Positions 1 through 8,647 of a DNA stretch of 64,000 nucleotides are shown here, one piece after another (positions within the stretch are counted from its first letter, which is position 1; every line of letters starts with the position of its first letter). Origin of the DNA: an uncultured Acidobacteriota bacterium (GTDB lineage: Bacteria > Acidobacteriota > Vicinamibacteria > Fen-336); assembly GCA_902826455.1 (NCBI GenBank), contig CADEEV010000021.1, positions 1 to 64,000 on the forward strand, in the 5' to 3' direction. The position numbers were made by a program, and so were the translations under genes. The notes beneath the pieces are model-generated. The model was not told the DNA's origin. It did no database searches and saw nothing but the letters and a program-made list of their open reading frames with translations.

Positions 1-850
1 GGCCCACGTGGGGACGCAGCGCATGGGGCGCCATCAGGCCCACGAACGGCACCGAGCCCGCGACGGCGGTCGCCGCTCCCGCCACGAGCGACGCGAGGGC
101 GAACAGCACCAGGCGCACGGCATGGACCGGCAGGCCCAGGGACGCCGCCTCCACCTCGCCCAGGGAGAGCACGTCGAGAGGCCGCGCCATGAGGAACAGC
201 AGCACGACGCCCGTGGCGATGAAGGCGCCGCCGAGCTGCAGGTGGCTCCAGCTGCGGCCCTCGAGGCCGCCGGCCAGCCAGAACAGCACCGTCTTCACGC
301 GGAACTCCTCGGTGGCGACGAGCAGGATCGACATGCCCGCGCTCGCCAGGGCCGAGACCGCGAGGCCCGTGAGGATCAGGCCGTGGAGTGCCGGCCGCCC
401 GGCCCCGTGGGACAGCGCGTAGACGAGCAGCACGGACAGCATCGCGCCCACGAAGGCGGCGATGGGCAGGGAGAAGAAGACTTCCGAGGCCCAGCCGAAG
501 TGCACGGCCACGACCGCGCCCAGCCCCGCGCCGGCGGTCACTCCGAGGAGTCCCGCGTCGGCCATGGGGTTGCGGAACACCGACTGCAGGCAGGCGCCCA
601 CGACGGCGAGGCCGCCGCCGACGAGCGCCGCGATCAGCACGCGCGGCAGCCGCACCGACCAGAGGATCGCCTCGCCCGCCGGGCCGAGTGCCGAAGCGCC
701 GAAGTCGGGGAGGCCGAGCGCTCGCGCCACCGAGCCCAGCACGGCGCCGAAGGGCAGCGGCACGCTCCCCACCGCCGTCGCCACCGCGAGCGCCACGGGC
801 AAGGCGAGGCCGAGGCCGACGAACGTGGCTCGCCGCCGCGCGCCGCTCAT
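1..850 (-). CDS. btuC: BtuC/FecCD-family ABC transporter permease (partial, C-terminus beyond window)
   Basis: This is an inner-membrane permease of the FecCD/BtuC family that would move corrinoid (or an iron chelate) from a periplasmic binding protein into the cytoplasm. My translation of the minus strand from the ATG at 848-850 stays open to the window edge, giving about 283 residues of a usual 330. It begins MSGARRRATFVGLGLALP and contains the family signature WSVRLPRVLIAALVGGG followed by GACLQSVFRNPMADAGLLG. The start overlaps the stop of the BtuF-like gene as ATGA, so the two are translationally coupled. The cobalamin riboswitch at the head of the operon argues for corrinoid rather than iron. 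No ATPase (BtuD) is visible; it probably lies beyond position 1. Confidence 0.88.
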   Translation of the reverse strand, partial: MSGARRRATFVGLGLALPVALAVATAVGSVPLPFGAVLGSVARALGLPDFGASALGPAGEAILWSVRLPRVLIAALVGGGLAVVGACLQSVFRNPMADAGLLGVTAGAGLGAVVAVHFGWASEVFFSLPIAAFVGAMLSVLLVYALSHGAGRPALHGLILTGLAVSALASAGMSILLVATEEFRVKTVLFWLAGGLEGRSWSHLQLGGAFIATGVVLLFLMARPLDVLSLGEVEAASLGLPVHAVRLVLFALASLVAGAATAVAGSVPFVGLMAPHALRPHVG

Positions 851-1695
851 CGCGACGTGACGCGATCCGGGTGCAGGCGCTCCGCGAGCCACACGCAGGC
901 GTCGGCCGTGAAGCTGGAGAGCGCGACCATGAGCCTGTTCGGCATGACGACGATGCGGCCCTGGCGCACCGCGTCGAGCTGCGAGAGCAGCGGGTGCTGC
1001 TTCACGGCATCGACCGAGCCCGGGTACCGCGCGACGAGGATCACGTCCGGGTTCGCGACGAAGGCGCGCTCGGCCCCGGGAGGAACGATGCCCACGACGC
1101 CGAGCTCGCGTCCCACGTTCACTCCGCCCGCGCCCTCGATGAGCGCGCCGATCGCCGTGTCGGCGCCCGCGGTCATGCCTCCCGACCAGTACAGCACCCG
1201 TGGCCGCCGCGCACCGGCGATCCGGCGCTGGACGTCCGCGAGCTTGCGGTCGTACTCGAAGGCGAGCGCTTCCGCCGCCTTCTCCTCGCCCACCACGCGG
1301 CCCAGGTCCACGATCGCCTTGCGGATGCCGGCGAGCGTCGAGAGCCCGCTCATGCGGTGGGCCTTCAGGCCCGAGCGCTGCAGCAGCTTCAGGAAGTCGG
1401 CGTCGGTGTACTCCGAGACGATCACGAGGTCGGGAGCGAGAGCGACGAGCTGCTCCATGTCGGCCTTCTGGAAGCGGACGGCCTCTTTCGGGACGCGGCC
1501 GGCCACGTTCGAGGTCTCGAGGTCGTCCGCCCAGCGCGTGACGCCGACGAGCCGGCCGGGCGGCAGGATCAGGGTGAGCACCTCGTCGGCGGAAAGATTG
1601 ATCGACGCGACACGGCGTGGCACCTTCGCGTCCTCGGCCGAAGCGAGGCCCGCCGCGGCCAGGGCGAGCGCGGCGAGGACGAGGCGGCGCTTCAC
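847..1695 (-). CDS. btuF: Periplasmic corrinoid-binding protein (BtuF-like)
   Basis: About 282 residues. An N-terminal signal peptide (VKRRLVLAALALAAAGLASA) precedes a helical-backbone (cluster A, TroA/BtuF-type) binding fold: PRRVASINLSADEVLTLI, then LVALAPDLVIVSEYT and the late motif ANPDVILVARY. It would capture corrinoid in the periplasm and hand it to the BtuC-like permease encoded next. I place the start at the GTG at 1693-1695, which overlaps the upstream TGA as GTGA; a longer reading would run back through the DUF71 gene in another frame. The stop overlaps the permease start as ATGA. Substrate assignment rests on the riboswitch and the BtuB-like receptor rather than on specific binding residues. 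Confidence 0.88.
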   Translation of the reverse strand: MKRRLVLAALALAAAGLASAEDAKVPRRVASINLSADEVLTLILPPGRLVGVTRWADDLETSNVAGRVPKEAVRFQKADMEQLVALAPDLVIVSEYTDADFLKLLQRSGLKAHRMSGLSTLAGIRKAIVDLGRVVGEEKAAEALAFEYDRKLADVQRRIAGARRPRVLYWSGGMTAGADTAIGALIEGAGGVNVGRELGVVGIVPPGAERAFVANPDVILVARYPGSVDAVKQHPLLSQLDAVRQGRIVVMPNRLMVALSSFTADACVWLAERLHPDRVTSR

Positions 1696-2360
1696 GCGGC
1701 GCTCGCGAGAGGCAGGAGGTCCGCGAACACGAAGCCGTCGCGCTCGACGACCGCGCCGGCCGCGATCGCGATCGGCGTGCGGAACATCGGCCCGGCCCAG
1801 GCGAAGCTGTGGAACTCCCCGTTCTCGCCGCACGGGTCGACGTGGGCGGGGAGCTCGGCGAGCAGGCGGCGGTCGAAGGCGCGTCCCGCGAAAGCCGCCG
1901 GCAGCACCCGCGGGTCGACGCACGTGAGACGCGCCTCGAGACCGCTCGCGATCATCTCCTCGGCGAGCGCGCGGGTGGGCCGGCCCCACAGCGGGAAGAG
2001 CGGCCGCAGGCCGGTGCCCGCGAGGCGCTCCTCGCGGTAGCGGCGAATGTCCTCGAGGAAGAGATCGCCGAAGGCCACGGCCTCGACGCCCGCCGCGCGC
2101 GCCGCGGCCATGGCGCCGGCCATGGCCGTCTCGTAGACCTCGTTGGGGCACGGCGACGGGATCGGCACGATCGTCACGGGCAGGCCGGCGGCGTCGGCCT
2201 GCGCCAGGAGCAGCGAGCGCCGCACCGCATGCATCGCGACGCGGTCATGGGTCTCGTTGAGCGTCGTGAGGAGGCCGACGACCTCCACACCCTGCTCACG
2301 CAGGACGTGGAGGCTGTAGGCGCTGTCCTTGCCGCTGCTCCATGCGAGGAGGGTCTTCAC
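1692..2360 (-). CDS. DUF71/Dph6-family ATP pyrophosphatase in a B12 operon
   Basis: A 222-residue PP-loop ATP pyrophosphatase. The adenylating PP-loop WSSGKDSAYSL lies at residues 7-17, and the family motif GENGEFHSF lies near residue 185. Archaeal and eukaryotic members (Dph6) amidate diphthine, a substrate bacteria lack. A bacterial branch has been predicted from genomic context to act in B12 salvage (DUF71/COG2102 comparative genomics). Here it sits between the btuB-like and btuF-like genes with GTGA overlaps on both sides and is under the same cobalamin riboswitch, which supports that prediction. The likely chemistry is ATP-dependent amidation of a corrinoid side chain or precursor, but this is inference. 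The start is GTG at 2358-2360. Confidence 0.88.
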   Translation of the reverse strand: MKTLLAWSSGKDSAYSLHVLREQGVEVVGLLTTLNETHDRVAMHAVRRSLLLAQADAAGLPVTIVPIPSPCPNEVYETAMAGAMAAARAAGVEAVAFGDLFLEDIRRYREERLAGTGLRPLFPLWGRPTRALAEEMIASGLEARLTCVDPRVLPAAFAGRAFDRRLLAELPAHVDPCGENGEFHSFAWAGPMFRTPIAIAAGAVVERDGFVFADLLPLASAA

Positions 2361-4546
2361 TTCCTGCTGCGAAAGCGCACCCCCGCGCGGACGGCGCGGC
2401 CCAGGGCCGGGTAGCCCAGCGCTTCCATGTACTCTTCGTCGAAGAGGTTCTCGCCGAGCACGAACAGCTCGAAGCCCTTGCCGGCGTCGAAGCGCACGCG
2501 GGCGTCGATGCGGGTGTAGCCCTCGTTCTCGGCGAGGCCGATGCCGGAAAAGTCGCTGTCGGCGCGGCGGCCCACGACGAAGAGCGTCGCGCCGCCGCTG
2601 AGGCGCCCGCGCTGCGCGTGGGCGGAGAACGAGGCCTGGTGCTTCGGGCGGCGCAGGAGCGGCTCGCCCGCGGCGTAGACGGGGTCGAAGGCGTTGCCGC
2701 TCTCGACGATCTCGCCGTCGAGATAGGTGTAGGCCGCCGACAGCGCCAGGCCCGGGACCGGTGCGATCTCGAGCGCGCCCTCGACCCCGCGCGCCTTGGT
2801 CTCGCCCAGGTTCACGTACGTGCCCTCGAAAGTGTTGAAGTCGACGGTCTGGTAGGCGATCTGATCGCGGTAGCTGTGGTCGAAGTACGTCGCTTCGACG
2901 CGCACGCGTCCCTCGGCGAGGCGCTGCTCGAGGCCGACGTCGAAGGTCCGGCTGCGCTCGGGCTTCAGGTCGGGATTGCCCTGGGCGAAGAAGGACGTCC
3001 CGTAGGACTGGGAGAAGTCGGGCTCCTTGATGCCCTTGCCGGCGCTGGCGCGCAGCGTCGTGGCGTCGGGACCGCCGTGGAGCGAGACGGCGACGGCCGC
3101 GCGGGGCACGGCCTTCCAGCCGAAGTTGTCGTTGTGCTCGAGACGGCCGCCGAGCGTGACGTGGGCGCGCCCGCCGATCACGAAGCGGTCCTGCAGGAAG
3201 GCGCCGGCGTTCGTGCGCGTCGGCGACAGCAGCGTGTCGGCGCGCGAGCCGACGTCGCCGGTCTCGCGCTCGAGCTCGAGGCCGCCGGTCAGGAGCTGGC
3301 CGCCCGCGAGCTGGGCGTCGGCCTGGTAGCCCGCCGAGAGCCGCGCGACGTTGTTCTGATAGCCGAGGGCGTCGACGAAGTCCGAGCTCGGGAACGCGGC
3401 GGCCTGGCCTTCGAACGTCGGCGTGAAGGAGCCCGAGTCCACCGGGTCCTTGCTGAGTTGATGCGTCTGCGCGTAGCCCGCGCGCAGCTCGTGGGAGACG
3501 GGACCCTGCACGTGGCGCAGCGTGACGCCCGCGACGAGGTCGGAGCGGTCGAACGTGCCCTCGAGGTCGGGCCGGCCGAAGGCGGTCTGCCCCGGGGTGC
3601 CGAGGGTCGAGTCGTAGGCGCGCAGCACGGCGCGCAGGCGCGTGTCGGAGGAGAACTCGACGCCCACGGAGGCGGCGCCGGCCGTCTCCTCGAAGCCGTT
3701 GTTCGCCACGTCGTTGTCGGTGTCGAGACGCACGCCGCCCATGTTCCAGTCGAGGCGGCCGCTGCGGCCCGAGGTGCCGCCCTCGAAGCGCCGCGTATCG
3801 AAGCTGCCGGCCTCGGCGCCCAGGTGGAGGCCCGGCTTCTCGCCGGGCAGCGCGCGCCGCGTCACGAGGTTCACGACGCCCGCGAGGGCGTCGGTGCCGT
3901 AGAGGCTGCTCGCGGCGCCGCGCACCACCTCGACGCGGTCGAGCTCGAAGGCGAGGGCGCTGCCGAGGTCGAAGGCGCCCCCGGGCTCGTTCACCGGCAC
4001 GCCGTCGACGAGGATGCGCGCGAAGCGGCTCTCGCCGCCGCGCACGAAGATCGAGCCCTGGTTGCCCACGGCGCCGGTCCGTGCGCTCGTGATCCCGGGC
4101 AGGCCCTGGACGAGATCCAGGAAGGAGTTCGCCTGGCGCGCGGCGATCGCCTCGCGGTCGAGGACGCTCGTCGCGACGCCGAGCGTCGACGCCGGCGCCT
4201 CGCCGCGGGTGGCCGAGACCAGCACGCGCTCGCGGATCGGGGCGGGGGAGAGCGTGACGTCGGCGGCCGTCTCGCCGTCGGCCACGGTGAACGTCGGCGC
4301 GGGGCTCAGCACGAAGCCCGCGGTCTCGAGGGCGACCTGGTACGAGCCGGCGGCGAGGCCGCTCACGCGGAACCGCCCTTCCGGGCCGGTCACGACTCGG
4401 TGCTCTCCCGACGGGCCCGTGACGACCAGGACGACCTGGGGCAAGGCGATGCCGTCGGCGGTGCGGGCGGCGCCCGCGAGCGAGCCGTCCGCGAACGCGG
4501 ACACGGCGAAGACGAGGGACAAGACGGACACGAAGAGGCGCGACAT
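2357..4546 (-). CDS. btuB: TonB-dependent outer-membrane receptor (BtuB-like, with carboxypeptidase-like N-terminal domain)
   Basis: A 729-residue outer-membrane receptor. A signal peptide (MSRLFVSVLSLVFAVSAFA) leads into a carboxypeptidase-regulatory-like beta domain (residues about 20-90, with the typical GPEGRFRVSGLAAGSYQV). The plug follows, with SIFVRGGESRFARILVDG and RVEVVRGAASSLYGTDALAGVVN, then the barrel ending in a hydrophobic/aromatic strand. I start it at the ATG at 4544-4546, which has a GGGAG ribosome site just upstream; an in-frame ATG ten codons earlier lacks one. It is the first gene after the cobalamin riboswitch, so corrinoid is the expected ligand. The fused N-terminal beta domain is common in Acidobacteriota and Bacteroidota receptors and is absent from E. 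coli BtuB. Confidence 0.9.
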   Translation of the reverse strand: MSRLFVSVLSLVFAVSAFADGSLAGAARTADGIALPQVVLVVTGPSGEHRVVTGPEGRFRVSGLAAGSYQVALETAGFVLSPAPTFTVADGETAADVTLSPAPIRERVLVSATRGEAPASTLGVATSVLDREAIAARQANSFLDLVQGLPGITSARTGAVGNQGSIFVRGGESRFARILVDGVPVNEPGGAFDLGSALAFELDRVEVVRGAASSLYGTDALAGVVNLVTRRALPGEKPGLHLGAEAGSFDTRRFEGGTSGRSGRLDWNMGGVRLDTDNDVANNGFEETAGAASVGVEFSSDTRLRAVLRAYDSTLGTPGQTAFGRPDLEGTFDRSDLVAGVTLRHVQGPVSHELRAGYAQTHQLSKDPVDSGSFTPTFEGQAAAFPSSDFVDALGYQNNVARLSAGYQADAQLAGGQLLTGGLELERETGDVGSRADTLLSPTRTNAGAFLQDRFVIGGRAHVTLGGRLEHNDNFGWKAVPRAAVAVSLHGGPDATTLRASAGKGIKEPDFSQSYGTSFFAQGNPDLKPERSRTFDVGLEQRLAEGRVRVEATYFDHSYRDQIAYQTVDFNTFEGTYVNLGETKARGVEGALEIAPVPGLALSAAYTYLDGEIVESGNAFDPVYAAGEPLLRRPKHQASFSAHAQRGRLSGGATLFVVGRRADSDFSGIGLAENEGYTRIDARVRFDAGKGFELFVLGENLFDEEYMEALGYPALGRAVRAGVRFRSRK

Positions 4547-4588
4547 CGGCGAGTCTCCCTTCAGCGAGGAACTCACGACCGTTTGGAT

Positions 4589-4770
4589 GTCCGGGCAGGT
4601 TTCCTGGCTCCCGGGTCCTCGCCCAGCCTCTCGACCTTCCCCAAGCCCGTGGGCTTGAGTGGCGGCGCTCTACGGCGCCTTGGAGAGGCGGGCTCGCCGG
4701 CTACAGTGGCGCGACCGCGCAGGCTTTCGACCTGCTTCCCTTTTACCCCCGCCTTCGGGGGCACCCGGAC
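4589..4770 (-). promoter_or_regulatory. Cobalamin riboswitch (B12 element)
   Basis: Read on the minus strand, the element starts with a P1 arm GTCCGGG (4770-4764) and ends with the complementary CCCGGAC (4595-4589). Inside are the hallmark GCCACTGTAG segment (around 4705) and the B12 box AGCCAGGAAACCTGCC (4609-4594). This is the canonical adenosylcobalamin aptamer order. It lies 43 nt upstream of the btuB-like start, so B12 would repress expression of the uptake operon. A TAGAAT -10-like hexamer on the minus strand at 4786-4781 could start the transcript; I see no good -35. Confidence 0.93.
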
Positions 4771-4792
4771 TGATGCCGGGATTCTAGCACCG

Positions 4793-4826: not shown

Positions 4827-7628
4827 ATGCGCTTCAGCTCCGCGTGTCTCGCCGCCGCAGTGGTCCTCTCCGTCCCCGTTTCGGGCCGCGCCCAGGACGT
4901 GCCCGAGCCCGGTACGACCGAGGCCATCAAGGCGGCCACCACCGAGGCCCGCTTCCTCTCGCCGTGGGTCGCGTCCCTGCCCGACTCGCCGACGGTGCCG
5001 TCGCCGTCCGACTTCCTCGGCCGCATCGCGGGAGCGCCGGGCGAGCTCGCGAGCTCCGGCCAGGCCCACGCCTACTTCCGGAAGCTCGCCGAGACCTCGC
5101 CCCGGGCCAAGGTGATCCTGCTGGGGAAGACCGAGCAGGGTCGCGAGATCCTGGCGCTCGCGATCGCGGACGACGAGGGCATCGAGGACTTCGAGCGGCT
5201 GAAGGCGGCCACCGCCGCGCTCGCCGACCCGCGGCGGACGACGCCGGAGCAGGCCGCCGCCCTCGTCCCGCAGTCCCGGCCGTTCTACTACTTCAACGCC
5301 GGCCTGCACGCCGACGAGACGGGCTCGACCGAAGCCACGATGGAGCTCGCGTACCGCCTGCTCGTCTCCGACGACCCGCGCATCCAGCTCATGCGGAAGA
5401 AGCTGGTCGTGTTCGTGAACCCCGTGGGCAACCCCGACGGCCGCGATCGCGTCGTCGAGTGGTTCTACCGGTTCCTGAAGGGCAAGACCGACTACGACAC
5501 GCTGCCGCGCCAGTCGCCGCCGTACTGGTCCGACTACGCGTTCGTCGACATCAACCGCGACGCCCATCAACTCGTCCACGGCGCCGCGCGCGCCGCGGCC
5601 CGCATGATGCTCGAGTACCACCCGACCGTGATCCACGACCTGCACGAGGCGATCGCGCTGCTGCTCACGTGGAACGGCACGGGCCCCTGGAACCCGCACA
5701 TCGACCCGATCACGACGAGCGAGGCCGTGGAGCTCGGCTTCCACGAGGTCCAGGCCCTCACCGCCCTCGGCATGCCGGGGGTCTCGACGTGGAAGTTCGG
5801 CGAGGGCTTCGGGCAGCACTACCTGGACTCGATCGCGAACAACCACAACGCCCTGGGCCGCGGCTACGAGACGTGGGGCAACACCACGGCCGAGACCGTG
5901 CGCCGCGTGCTCGATGCCGGCAGCGTCACGAAAGAGTGGTGGCGTCCACTGCCGCCTCCCCGCGAGTTCTGGTGGAGCGCCCGCGACAACGTGAACTACA
6001 CCGAGACCGCGGCCCTCGCCGCCCTCGACTACACGGCGCTCCACGCGAGCGACCTGCTGATGAACTTCTACCGGAAGGGCTACAACTCCTGGCAGAGCGG
6101 CGTCGCGGGCTCGCCGCGCGGCTTCGTGATCGCGGAGGACCAGGGCGACCGCCTGCGCGTGGCGCAGCTCGTGGGCCGGCTCCAGGCCCAGGGCATCGAG
6201 GTCGGGCGCGCGACGGCCCCGCTGCGGCTCGCGGACGGCGACTTCCCGGCCGGCAGCTACGTCGTGCGCCTCGACCAGCCCTATCGCAACTACGCCGTGG
6301 ATCTCCTGACCCCGCAGGTCTACCCCGTGGAGTCGGGCGTCGAGCCCTACGACGACATCTCGTGGTCGATCCCGGCCCACTATCACCTGGACGTGAAGGC
6401 GGTCCAGGACCCGGCGGTGCAGAACGCGGCGCTCTCGCCGCTGCTCACGGCGACGCCGAAGCCCGCGGGGGCCGTGAGCGGCGCGGGCCCCGTGTTCCTC
6501 CTGCGCGACACCGGCCAGGAAGCGCTGCTCGCCGCGCGCTACCGTCTGGCCGCGTTCAAGCTCGAGATCGCGGAGAAGGCCTTCCGGGTCGGCACCGTGG
6601 ACTACCCCGCGGGCTCGTGGATCCTCGGCGGACAGGGCGGCCTCGCCGACGCCGTGCGGGGCGTCGCCGCGGATCTCGCCCTCGACTTCGCGAGCGTCGC
6701 GTCGGCCCCCGACGTCGCGCGCCACGAGGCGCCGGCGCCGCGCATCGGCCTGTGGGTCCCGTGGGCGGACACGGACTCGATCGGCTGGATCCGCTACTCC
6801 CTGGACCAGCGCAAGGTGCCCTACACGTACGTCCGCGACGAGGACGTCCGCTCGGGAGCCTTCCGTGCGAAGACCGACGTGCTGCTCTACGGCCAGGTGG
6901 ACCTCGAGCTCGCGGAGCAGATCGTGGGCCTGCCGAAGGCCTGGGGTCCCATGCCCTACAAGAAGACCCCGCAGACGCCGAGCCACGGCTTCCCGGCCGA
7001 GACCGACGACATCACGGGCGGCATCGGCTACGCGGGCGTCGCGCAGCTGCAGTCGTTCGTGGAGGACGGCGGGCTCCTCGTCACGCTGGGCAGCGGCAGC
7101 GCCCTGGCGCTGGAAGGCGGTCTCGTGCGCGGCGTCCGCAAGAGCGCCGGCGGCGTGCCGCGCACGACCGACGGCAGCGGCTCCGCCTCGGCGGCCGCTG
7201 CGGCTCTCGCCGCGACGCGCACTCCGGGCGCGCACCTGCGCGTGCGCTTCACGCAGCCCGCGCACCCGCTCGCGTACGGCTACACCCCCGACACCTGGGT
7301 GTTCCGCCAGAACTTCCCGCTCTACGACGCGCCGCTGCGCTCGTTGCGCATGTCGTACTGCACGTCGTGCCTCGACGGACCCGAGGACCGCAGCGGCATC
7401 GTCATGGAGTGGGGCGACGGCGACAAGCCGTTCGTCGTGAGCGGCGGCGCCTGGGGACCGGCCGACCTCGTCGGCCGGCCGGCGATCTTCGACATGCCGG
7501 TGGGGAAGGGGCGCGCGATCTCGTTCAACTTCAACCCGATGCATCGTGACCTGAACCGCGGCGACCAGCGCCTGCTGTGGAACGCGCTGCTCAACTGGAA
7601 GGCGATCCTGGCGCGGAAGCAGTCGTGA
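4827..7628 (+). CDS. Secreted M14-family zinc carboxypeptidase, 933 aa
   Basis: An exported M14 peptidase. A signal peptide (residues 1-22, ending SGRAQ) is followed by the peptidase domain. The zinc-ligand motif HADETGSTE lies at 161-169 (His161, Glu164); VFVNPVGNPDGRDR and DINRDAHQ follow, and HDLHEA at 270-275 supplies candidate third-ligand histidines. The length (933) is far above a bare M14 domain of about 300. The C-terminal third resembles a glutamine-amidotransferase-like beta/alpha domain (GLLVTLGSGSALALEGG). The stop overlaps the GTG start of hemE as GTGA, an odd pairing of a secreted peptidase with a haem enzyme. Peptide specificity cannot be read from sequence. Confidence 0.88.
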   Translation: MRFSSACLAAAVVLSVPVSGRAQDVPEPGTTEAIKAATTEARFLSPWVASLPDSPTVPSPSDFLGRIAGAPGELASSGQAHAYFRKLAETSPRAKVILLGKTEQGREILALAIADDEGIEDFERLKAATAALADPRRTTPEQAAALVPQSRPFYYFNAGLHADETGSTEATMELAYRLLVSDDPRIQLMRKKLVVFVNPVGNPDGRDRVVEWFYRFLKGKTDYDTLPRQSPPYWSDYAFVDINRDAHQLVHGAARAAARMMLEYHPTVIHDLHEAIALLLTWNGTGPWNPHIDPITTSEAVELGFHEVQALTALGMPGVSTWKFGEGFGQHYLDSIANNHNALGRGYETWGNTTAETVRRVLDAGSVTKEWWRPLPPPREFWWSARDNVNYTETAALAALDYTALHASDLLMNFYRKGYNSWQSGVAGSPRGFVIAEDQGDRLRVAQLVGRLQAQGIEVGRATAPLRLADGDFPAGSYVVRLDQPYRNYAVDLLTPQVYPVESGVEPYDDISWSIPAHYHLDVKAVQDPAVQNAALSPLLTATPKPAGAVSGAGPVFLLRDTGQEALLAARYRLAAFKLEIAEKAFRVGTVDYPAGSWILGGQGGLADAVRGVAADLALDFASVASAPDVARHEAPAPRIGLWVPWADTDSIGWIRYSLDQRKVPYTYVRDEDVRSGAFRAKTDVLLYGQVDLELAEQIVGLPKAWGPMPYKKTPQTPSHGFPAETDDITGGIGYAGVAQLQSFVEDGGLLVTLGSGSALALEGGLVRGVRKSAGGVPRTTDGSGSASAAAAALAATRTPGAHLRVRFTQPAHPLAYGYTPDTWVFRQNFPLYDAPLRSLRMSYCTSCLDGPEDRSGIVMEWGDGDKPFVVSGGAWGPADLVGRPAIFDMPVGKGRAISFNFNPMHRDLNRGDQRLLWNALLNWKAILARKQS

Positions 7629-8647
7629 ACGACCGCTTCCTGCGGGCCTGCCGGCGCGAGAGCGTCGACCGGACGCCCGTCTGGTTCATGCGGCAGGCCG
7701 GCCGCTACATGCCCGAGTACCGCGCGCTGCGCGAGAAGCACACGCTGCTCCAGCTCTGCCGCACGCCCGAGCTCGCGGTGGAGGTGACGCTGCAGCCGAT
7801 CCGCGCCCTGGGCGTCGACGCGGCGATCCTGTTCAGCGACCTGTTGCTGCCCCTGGCGCCGATGGGGATTCCCTTCGATTTCGTGGCCGGCGAGGGGCCG
7901 CAGATCGAGACGCCGCTGCGCTCCAAGGCCGACGTCGACGCCTTGCGCCGGTTCGAGCCGCGCCAGGAGCTCGCGACCACCCTCGAGGCGATCCGCCTGC
8001 TGCGCCGCGAGCTGCAGGTCCCCCTCATCGGTTTCGCCGGAGCGCCCTTCACCCTCGCGTCCTACGCGATCGAGGGCGGCCACTCGTCGAACTTCGCGAA
8101 GACGAAGGGCATGATGTACGGCGATCCGGCGACCTGGCATCGCCTCGCCGCGCAGCTCGCCGACACCGTGGGCGAGTACCTGCGGGCGCAGGTCGAGGCC
8201 GGCGCCCAGGCCCTCCAGGTGTTCGACTCGTGGATCGGCGCGCTCGACGAGGCGGACTACCGCGAGTTCGTCTTCCCCCACGTGCGCGCGATCTTCGACG
8301 GCCTCGTGGACCTGGGCGTGCCGCTCATCCACTTCGGCACGGGCACCGGCCACCTGCTCGCCGTGCAGCGCGAGGCCGGCGGGACCGTGATCGGCGTCGA
8401 CTGGCGCACGCCGCTCGACGTGGGCTGGTCGCGCGCGGGCGAGGGCGTCGCCGTGCAGGGCAACCTCGATCCCACGCTGCTGTTCGCGCCCCGGGAGCGC
8501 CTGCTCTCGCGGGTCGACGCGGTGCTCGCGAAGGCGGGCGGGCGCGACGGCCACGTCTTCAACCTCGGCCACGGCATCCTGCCCCACACGCCGGTGGAGA
8601 ACGTGAAGGCCGTCGTCGAGCACGTCCACGCGACGACCGCGCGCTAG
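7625..8647 (+). CDS. hemE: Uroporphyrinogen decarboxylase
   Basis: A cytoplasmic haem-pathway enzyme that decarboxylates uroporphyrinogen III to coproporphyrinogen III. The 340-residue length is normal. The diagnostic substrate-binding motif PVWFMRQAGRYMPEY lies near residues 19-33, GFAGAPFTLASYAIEGG near 138, and HFGTGTGHLL and GVDWRTPL follow. I use the GTG at 7625-7627, which overlaps the peptidase stop; a longer in-frame start would run 16 codons into the upstream gene. Protoporphyrinogen oxidase lies 5.7 kb downstream, so the haem genes are scattered rather than in one operon. Confidence 0.96.
   Translation: MNDRFLRACRRESVDRTPVWFMRQAGRYMPEYRALREKHTLLQLCRTPELAVEVTLQPIRALGVDAAILFSDLLLPLAPMGIPFDFVAGEGPQIETPLRSKADVDALRRFEPRQELATTLEAIRLLRRELQVPLIGFAGAPFTLASYAIEGGHSSNFAKTKGMMYGDPATWHRLAAQLADTVGEYLRAQVEAGAQALQVFDSWIGALDEADYREFVFPHVRAIFDGLVDLGVPLIHFGTGTGHLLAVQREAGGTVIGVDWRTPLDVGWSRAGEGVAVQGNLDPTLLFAPRERLLSRVDAVLAKAGGRDGHVFNLGHGILPHTPVENVKAVVEHVHATTAR

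Follow-up and report, generated by a model that had tools for sequence, protein, structure and literature searches.

A DUF71 gene in a riboswitch-preceded B12 uptake operon

The window analysed here is a stretch of 64,000 nucleotides from an uncultured Acidobacteriota bacterium of the class Vicinamibacteria (genome G000, GenBank contig CADEEV010000021.1). At its beginning an operon for vitamin B12 (cobalamin) uptake is encoded on the minus strand, which contains a gene of the DUF71 family and lies behind a cobalamin riboswitch. The B12 link of the DUF71-B12 subgroup is already known and the gene of the window is a further member; the point added here concerns the mechanism. The operon comprises the following features:

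4577..4783, minus strand: Cobalamin (B12) riboswitch aptamer (RF00174, 85.2 bits, E 1.4e-19, model positions 1-189 of 189)
2357..4576, minus strand: BtuB-like TonB-dependent receptor with N-terminal CarboxypepD_reg domain (PF00593 158.5 bits, PF07715 80.7 bits, PF13620 36.5 bits)
1692..2360, minus strand: DUF71-B12 enzyme of 222 amino acids with PP-loop ATP pyrophosphatase fold (PF01902, signature DPCGENGEFH)
847..1695, minus strand: BtuF-like periplasmic binding protein (PF01497 94.8 bits)
2..850, minus strand: BtuC-like FecCD permease, truncated where the contig ends (PF01032 217.2 bits; longer frame 2-892)

The aptamer matches RF00174 over the full model, for which the gathering score is 31.5 bits. 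Stop and start codons overlap by four bases at all three gene junctions (GTGA at 2360-2357 and at 1695-1692, ATGA at 850-847). A preliminary description of this DNA had reported the complete aptamer ahead of the operon and the overlaps of the DUF71 gene with the btuB-like and btuF-like genes; these, including the coordinates, were right, and the btuF-btuC overlap is additional. The receptor reaches 224.8 bits with TIGR01779 (TonB-B12), which is under the equivalog cut-off of 599.7, and is therefore called BtuB-like only. The names BtuB and BtuC express sequence similarity, both proteins being under the NCBI equivalog cut-offs. The true start of the receptor is likely the ATG near 4546. Since the window starts at base 1 of the contig (G000:C21:1-64000), btuC is cut and btuD is outside the view.

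Family, signature residues and predicted fold of the DUF71 protein

The DUF71 protein matches PF01902 with 101.3 bits (cut-off 23.2). Its top NCBIfam match is the curated Dph6 model TIGR03679, whose cut-off of 197.3 bits is not reached (73.2 bits). Residues 177-184 read CGENGEFH, a signature of the ENGEF/YH type, and replace the EGGE-x-E of Dph6. An alignment of 114 EFH rows, seven EYH rows and six archaeal Dph6 proteins was used to compare single residues. The ATP-loop residues Ser8, Gly10, Lys11 and Asp12 are common to all three groups. Asp99, Asp175, Cys177 and His184 are invariant in 114 of 114 EFH rows, with other residues in the Dph6 rows; Asp99 stands in the place of a Dph6 alanine. Cys177 is present in 114/114 EFH rows, some of which were collected by a pattern containing this cysteine, as well as in 7/7 EYH rows, and is alanine in 6/6 archaeal Dph6. 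It is also found in 28/28 full-length genes of the class (five shorter fragments are left out of this count) and in 21/21 genes of Pseudomonadota, all of which were found by the Pfam model.

The predicted structure has a predicted local distance difference test value (pLDDT) of 96.5, and according to this model the nearest solved folds are the archaeal Dph6 proteins PH1257 and PF0828 (Z 23-26), followed by a next match at Z 12.4. No corrinoid enzyme is among the fold-search matches listed, an absence which proves nothing.

The preliminary description had considered a Dph6 function unlikely, which agrees with the TIGR03679 score and the signature, and had proposed a tree as a check. In our tree the window protein lies outside the Dph6 cluster, in an EFH clade that comprises 121 of the 134 rows (support 99 in the Shimodaira-Hasegawa-like approximate likelihood ratio test, SH-aLRT), and the Dph6 rows are separate. 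Four of the six archaeal Dph6 proteins were included and sit on a branch of length 4.8 with a support of 100. The tree was calculated by a quick method and carries a long-branch warning; rows below 180 amino acids and near-duplicates were excluded. The nearest row to the window protein is a gene of the same family from the same operon type (78% identity). In six of six Thermoplasmata genomes a gene of the Dph6 type is found in addition to a solitary one of the EFH type (loci L213-L217, L219 and L043, L081, L085, L092, L094, L098). Apparent DUF71 fusions in G006, G009, G011 and G013 (frames of 500-1070 amino acids) were rejected as probable read-through of a neighbour in another frame, on visual inspection of their letter composition.

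B12 genes in the genome and in the class

The genome of the window is 100% complete with 0.97% contamination. Profile searches in it gave no match to CbiB, CbiZ, CobS or CobU; the same searches in 14 control genomes were positive for CbiB in 8, CbiZ in 5, CobS in 10 and CobU in 6. The genome does encode B12-dependent enzymes, namely MetH (2044.6 bits) and methylmalonyl-CoA mutase (N-domain, 784.1 bits), and a PduO-type adenosyltransferase.

The absence of the four genes extends to most DUF71-positive genomes of the class. After exclusion of 10 of 60 relatives, all less than 89% complete, the set contained 50 genomes, 31 with and 19 without DUF71. None of the four genes was found in 27 of the 31 DUF71-positive genomes. 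CbiB occurs in 1/31 positive vs 2/19 negative genomes, CbiZ in 0/31 vs 2/19, CobU in 3/31 vs 0/19 and CobS in 4/31 vs 1/19 (one each a fragment). Of 30 further DUF71-positive genomes, which were picked for diversity from the best 80 loci described below and for which completeness is not told, 18 had none of the four genes at E<=0.001. CbiZ was found in none of the DUF71-positive genomes of the class (0/31), the further set (0/30) and the Pseudomonadota (0/20). B12-binding domains are present in 80/80 genomes and give no contrast.

The btu clusters of two DUF71-negative class genomes hold or adjoin cbiB and cbiZ (G049 and G059; L209 5941-8060 and L210 5884-8006). In the relative G005 cobU and cobS are located at the btu genes, with DUF71 elsewhere. 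In the genus group g12 seven genomes encode DUF71 without a PduO match, in a search that did not include BtuR (PF02572); in this group (L101-L105) DUF71 is followed by a BtuF-like gene. A role of DUF71 as a replacement for the adenosyltransferase was rejected for the genome of the window, which has a PduO-type enzyme. The same applies to a replacement of CbiB, joining aminopropanol and cobyric acid, as CobU and CobS are also missing there.

Gene neighbourhoods of DUF71 genes

PF01902 is present in 34 of the 60 class relatives, and the surroundings were read in 31 of these 34 (those of G017 and G023 were not read, and the gene was not recovered in G036). In 26 of the 31 genomes a BtuB-, BtuF- or BtuC-like gene is encoded on the same strand at a distance of up to 3.5 kb, and 16 of the 18 btu-linked class loci searched have a Cobalamin aptamer. 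The operon arrangement is therefore not due to chance. Outside the class each species was represented by a single genome in the scan, and the best 80 loci, with 82 DUF71 genes, were taken from it. The btu linkage is also found in the marine gammaproteobacteria of L068, L076 and L087 and in a planctomycete (L042). Among Pseudomonadota 20 of 279 genomes are DUF71-positive; in 7 of these 20 BtuB directly precedes DUF71, in all 7 cases with an aptamer.

In two loci a single btu cluster contains two DUF71 types (L060, 4501-5154 and 8001-8666; L073, 4503-5156 and 8004-8681). The copy after btuB has GEYH and the copy near the end GEFH, with 36-37% vs 63-64% identity to the window protein. The two copies may thus catalyse related reactions on the same substrate.

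Divergent from the riboswitch operon the window encodes an M14 zinc carboxypeptidase-like protein of 933 amino acids (4827-7628, plus strand). The hemE gene (URO-D, 7577-8647, plus strand) is located about 3 kb past the riboswitch. A hemE gene (L065, 6816-7880) also directly adjoins the solitary DUF71 gene of Chromobacterium; the proximity in both cases is possibly due to chance.

CbiB, CbiZ and CobS in Pseudomonadota

The p values for this phylum are given without kinship correction. CbiB hits form a two-peaked list, and the cut for strong CbiB (E<1e-60) was set after this list had been seen; divergent CbiB-like proteins range from about 1e-18 to 1e-40, and 10 genomes (3 of them DUF71-positive) with hits weaker than roughly 1e-12 were placed in neither class. 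Strong CbiB is encoded in 4/20 DUF71-positive vs 155/259 negative genomes (p=0.0007). The divergent CbiB-like proteins are enriched in the positives (8/20 vs 16/259, p=6e-5). CobS was found in 10/20 vs 170/259 genomes (p=0.22; weak hits in G126, G189, G215 and G251 excluded). CbiZ genomes mostly have a strong CbiB as well, 2/2 in the class and 10/11 in Pseudomonadota. An Aeromonas genome (G061) contains a divergent CbiB-like gene beside a BtuF-like gene (L203, 5097-6843; NF006476 103 bits, cut-off 322); neither CobS nor CobU was matched in that genome.

Proposed function and alternatives

Cobyric acid released by CbiZ is returned to cobamide only through CbiB, CobU and CobS. In the genome of the window and in the 27 of 31 class genomes without any of the four genes the product of a CbiZ-like reaction would thus be a dead end by which the vitamin is destroyed. 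The most likely substrate of the DUF71 enzyme in this lineage is therefore a cobamide that is imported complete. A summary of the pathway from cobyric acid to cobamide is found in PMC3541065.

At low cobamide levels the riboswitch would permit expression of the receptor, the DUF71 enzyme, the binding protein and the permease. The organism, apparently unable to make or rebuild the nucleotide loop, would have to import complete cobamides, which would be adenosylated by the PduO-type enzyme and then used by MetH and methylmalonyl-CoA mutase. If located in the cytoplasm, as assumed here, the DUF71 enzyme would most likely act on the freshly imported intact corrinoid. According to the chemistry of the fold a carboxylate would be adenylated with ATP under release of pyrophosphate and then attacked by ammonia, and such an amidation would restore the amides on hydrolysed side chains of scavenged cobamide. 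Side-chain deamidation is a known route of B12 degradation with inactive products (PMC9822362). As the fold activates carboxylates and hydrolysed B12 side chains are known, our leading, though tentative, reading of the reaction is that damaged side chains are re-amidated with the use of ATP. The amidation chemistry is supported by the Dph6 fold and the retained ATP loop, since Dph6 is an ammonia ligase. The preliminary description had likewise suggested ATP-dependent amidation of an imported corrinoid. This part agrees with the reading preferred here; the cobyric acid derivatives which it had in mind as substrate are unlikely, because no CbiB, CobU or CobS match is available in the genome to finish the product, and a better candidate would be a cobamide that is complete except for a carboxylate in place of a side-chain amide. 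The operon, the riboswitch, the family, the missing matches to CbiB, CbiZ, CobS and CobU and the B12 enzymes are observations; the substrate, the reaction and the repair role are what we infer for the enzyme. The co-occurrence data speak against a CbiZ-like role in this lineage and are compatible with amidation, though not directly in its favour.

Several points weigh against re-amidation. The presumed catalytic glutamate of Dph6 is histidine in all 114 EFH rows and the neighbouring alanine is cysteine, so the chemistry may have changed; the invariant Cys-His pair could serve hydrolase or sulphur chemistry. That deamidated cobamides are a natural nutrient is an assumption. Where a Pfam match is absent, the step could still be carried out by an enzyme of another family. 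In the best 80 loci 67 of the 82 DUF71 genes are solitary (14 are btu-linked, 1 is at a contig edge), as are 13 of the 21 DUF71 genes in the Pseudomonadota sample, and a Cobalamin aptamer was found in 0 of 10 solitary-type loci searched. As most relatives outside the class are solitary, with no aptamer in the loci searched, the function may exceed B12 uptake. Finally, the genomes of all seven BtuB-linked Pseudomonadota encode CobS together with a CbiB-like protein, which is divergent in five and strong in two, so remodelling may occur there. A broad anticorrelation of CbiB with DUF71 was also rejected: strong and divergent hits taken together (12/20 vs 171/259) leave none, and the argument accordingly rests on genomes with no hit at all.

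The invariant cysteine leads to an alternative in which the intact corrinoid is changed in another ATP-dependent way, for example by a thioester step or by a LarE-like sulphur transfer to the activated carboxylate. Besides the conservation of Cys177 in the EFH and EYH rows and its replacement by alanine in archaeal Dph6, the presence of LarE among the weaker fold matches (Z about 9) is in favour of it. However, many PP-loop enzymes reach that Z level, the match of the cysteine to that of LarE is an assumption, and we know of no thio-corrinoid. We consider this explanation unlikely.

It is similarly improbable that the enzyme is a general small-molecule ligase unspecific for B12, the operon linkage being a local arrangement. 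Such a ligase would fit the tree, where solitary and btu-linked genes are intermingled (12 changes for EFH-btu), and the unrelated neighbours of the solitary genes: no B12 gene was found among the few of these neighbours that were scanned with Pfam, and the aptamer is absent from the ten loci mentioned above. Against it, linkage and riboswitch recur in distant lineages, namely in this class and in the 7 of 20 Pseudomonadota, and linkage recurs in L068, L076, L087 and L042 and in the data of 2012.

Even less can be said for a replacement of CbiZ, as proposed in 2012, by which the aminopropanol amide of pseudo-B12-type cobamides would be cut and cobyric acid be made available for remodelling. 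No DUF71-positive genome tested has CbiZ, G049 and G059 without DUF71 have cbiZ and cbiB by the btu genes instead, and the invariant cysteine and histidine of the signature would fit a hydrolase. However, cobyric acid would be the dead end described above, the exclusion of CbiZ and DUF71 is non-significant in Pseudomonadota (0/20 vs 11/259, p=1), and the conserved ATP loop would be superfluous for a hydrolase. We regard this role as quite improbable. That the protein is a true Dph6 (diphthine-ammonia ligase) is practically negligible, as despite top NCBIfam and fold matches to Dph6 the score stays below the cut-off, EGGE-x-E is lost, the tree separates the two and the six Thermoplasmata genomes hold both types.

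Returning to re-amidation, DUF71-B12 proteins in general could be corrinoid repair ligases, using ATP and ammonia, of auxotrophs that do not rebuild the loop, and the GEFH and GEYH copies of L060 and L073 could serve different side chains; this generalization is rather doubtful. The neighbourhoods as a whole suggest a single uptake system with interchangeable additions, DUF71 being that of cells which import finished cobamide only. The lineage offers a clean test bed: as no nucleotide-loop genes were found, remodelling via cobyric acid or cobinamide need not be considered. Side-chain repair, if true, would be a new step in the use of the environmental corrinoid pool by B12 auxotrophs.

Comparison with known systems

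The DUF71-B12 subgroup, with PF0295 as an example, was described by de Crecy-Lagard et al. in 2012 (PMC3541065), so that a B12-salvage role had indeed been predicted from context, as the preliminary description stated. At that time 75 of 102 DUF71-B12 genes already adjoined B12-transporter genes (PMC3541065), and the present locus, which had been called strong extra evidence, adds little alone. The frequent solitary genes indicate that the signature alone gives no B12 operon, which the count of 2012 left hidden. The role proposed was that of an amidohydrolase like CbiZ or of a different route for pseudo-B12, and co-distribution with CbiB was described (PMC3541065), which is a correlate and no sequence criterion; the cysteine, the riboswitch and BtuB are unnamed in the main text (PMC3541065). 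The function was still listed as unknown in 2016 (PMC5041015), and CbiR is the topic of PMC7733943. In the open-licence PubMed Central (PMC) literature, including that since 2013, no experiment on any DUF71-B12 member was found.

With LarE and other PP-loop enzymes of sulphur or amide chemistry the window protein shares the fold of N-type ATP pyrophosphatases (Z about 9-12), but it is distant from them and their substrates differ. Like CbiZ, DUF71-B12 is located beside btu genes, and in these sets the two never occur in one genome; however, the window protein has no PF01955 match, and CbiZ genomes have CbiB whereas the genome of the window does not. Fold (22-24% identity) and ATP loop are those of Dph6 (PF0828 and PH1257; structures 3rk1 and 2d13), in contrast to the signature CGENGEFH for EGGE-x-E and Asp99 for alanine. 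To our knowledge there is no diphthamide substrate in bacteria. The closest likeness is to the DUF71-B12 subgroup itself, with which the gene shares PF01902, the ENGEF/YH signature, the btu neighbours and a genome without CbiZ. While the members of 2012 were found in CbiB genomes, the genome of the window and most of its class are without matches to CbiB, CobU and CobS.

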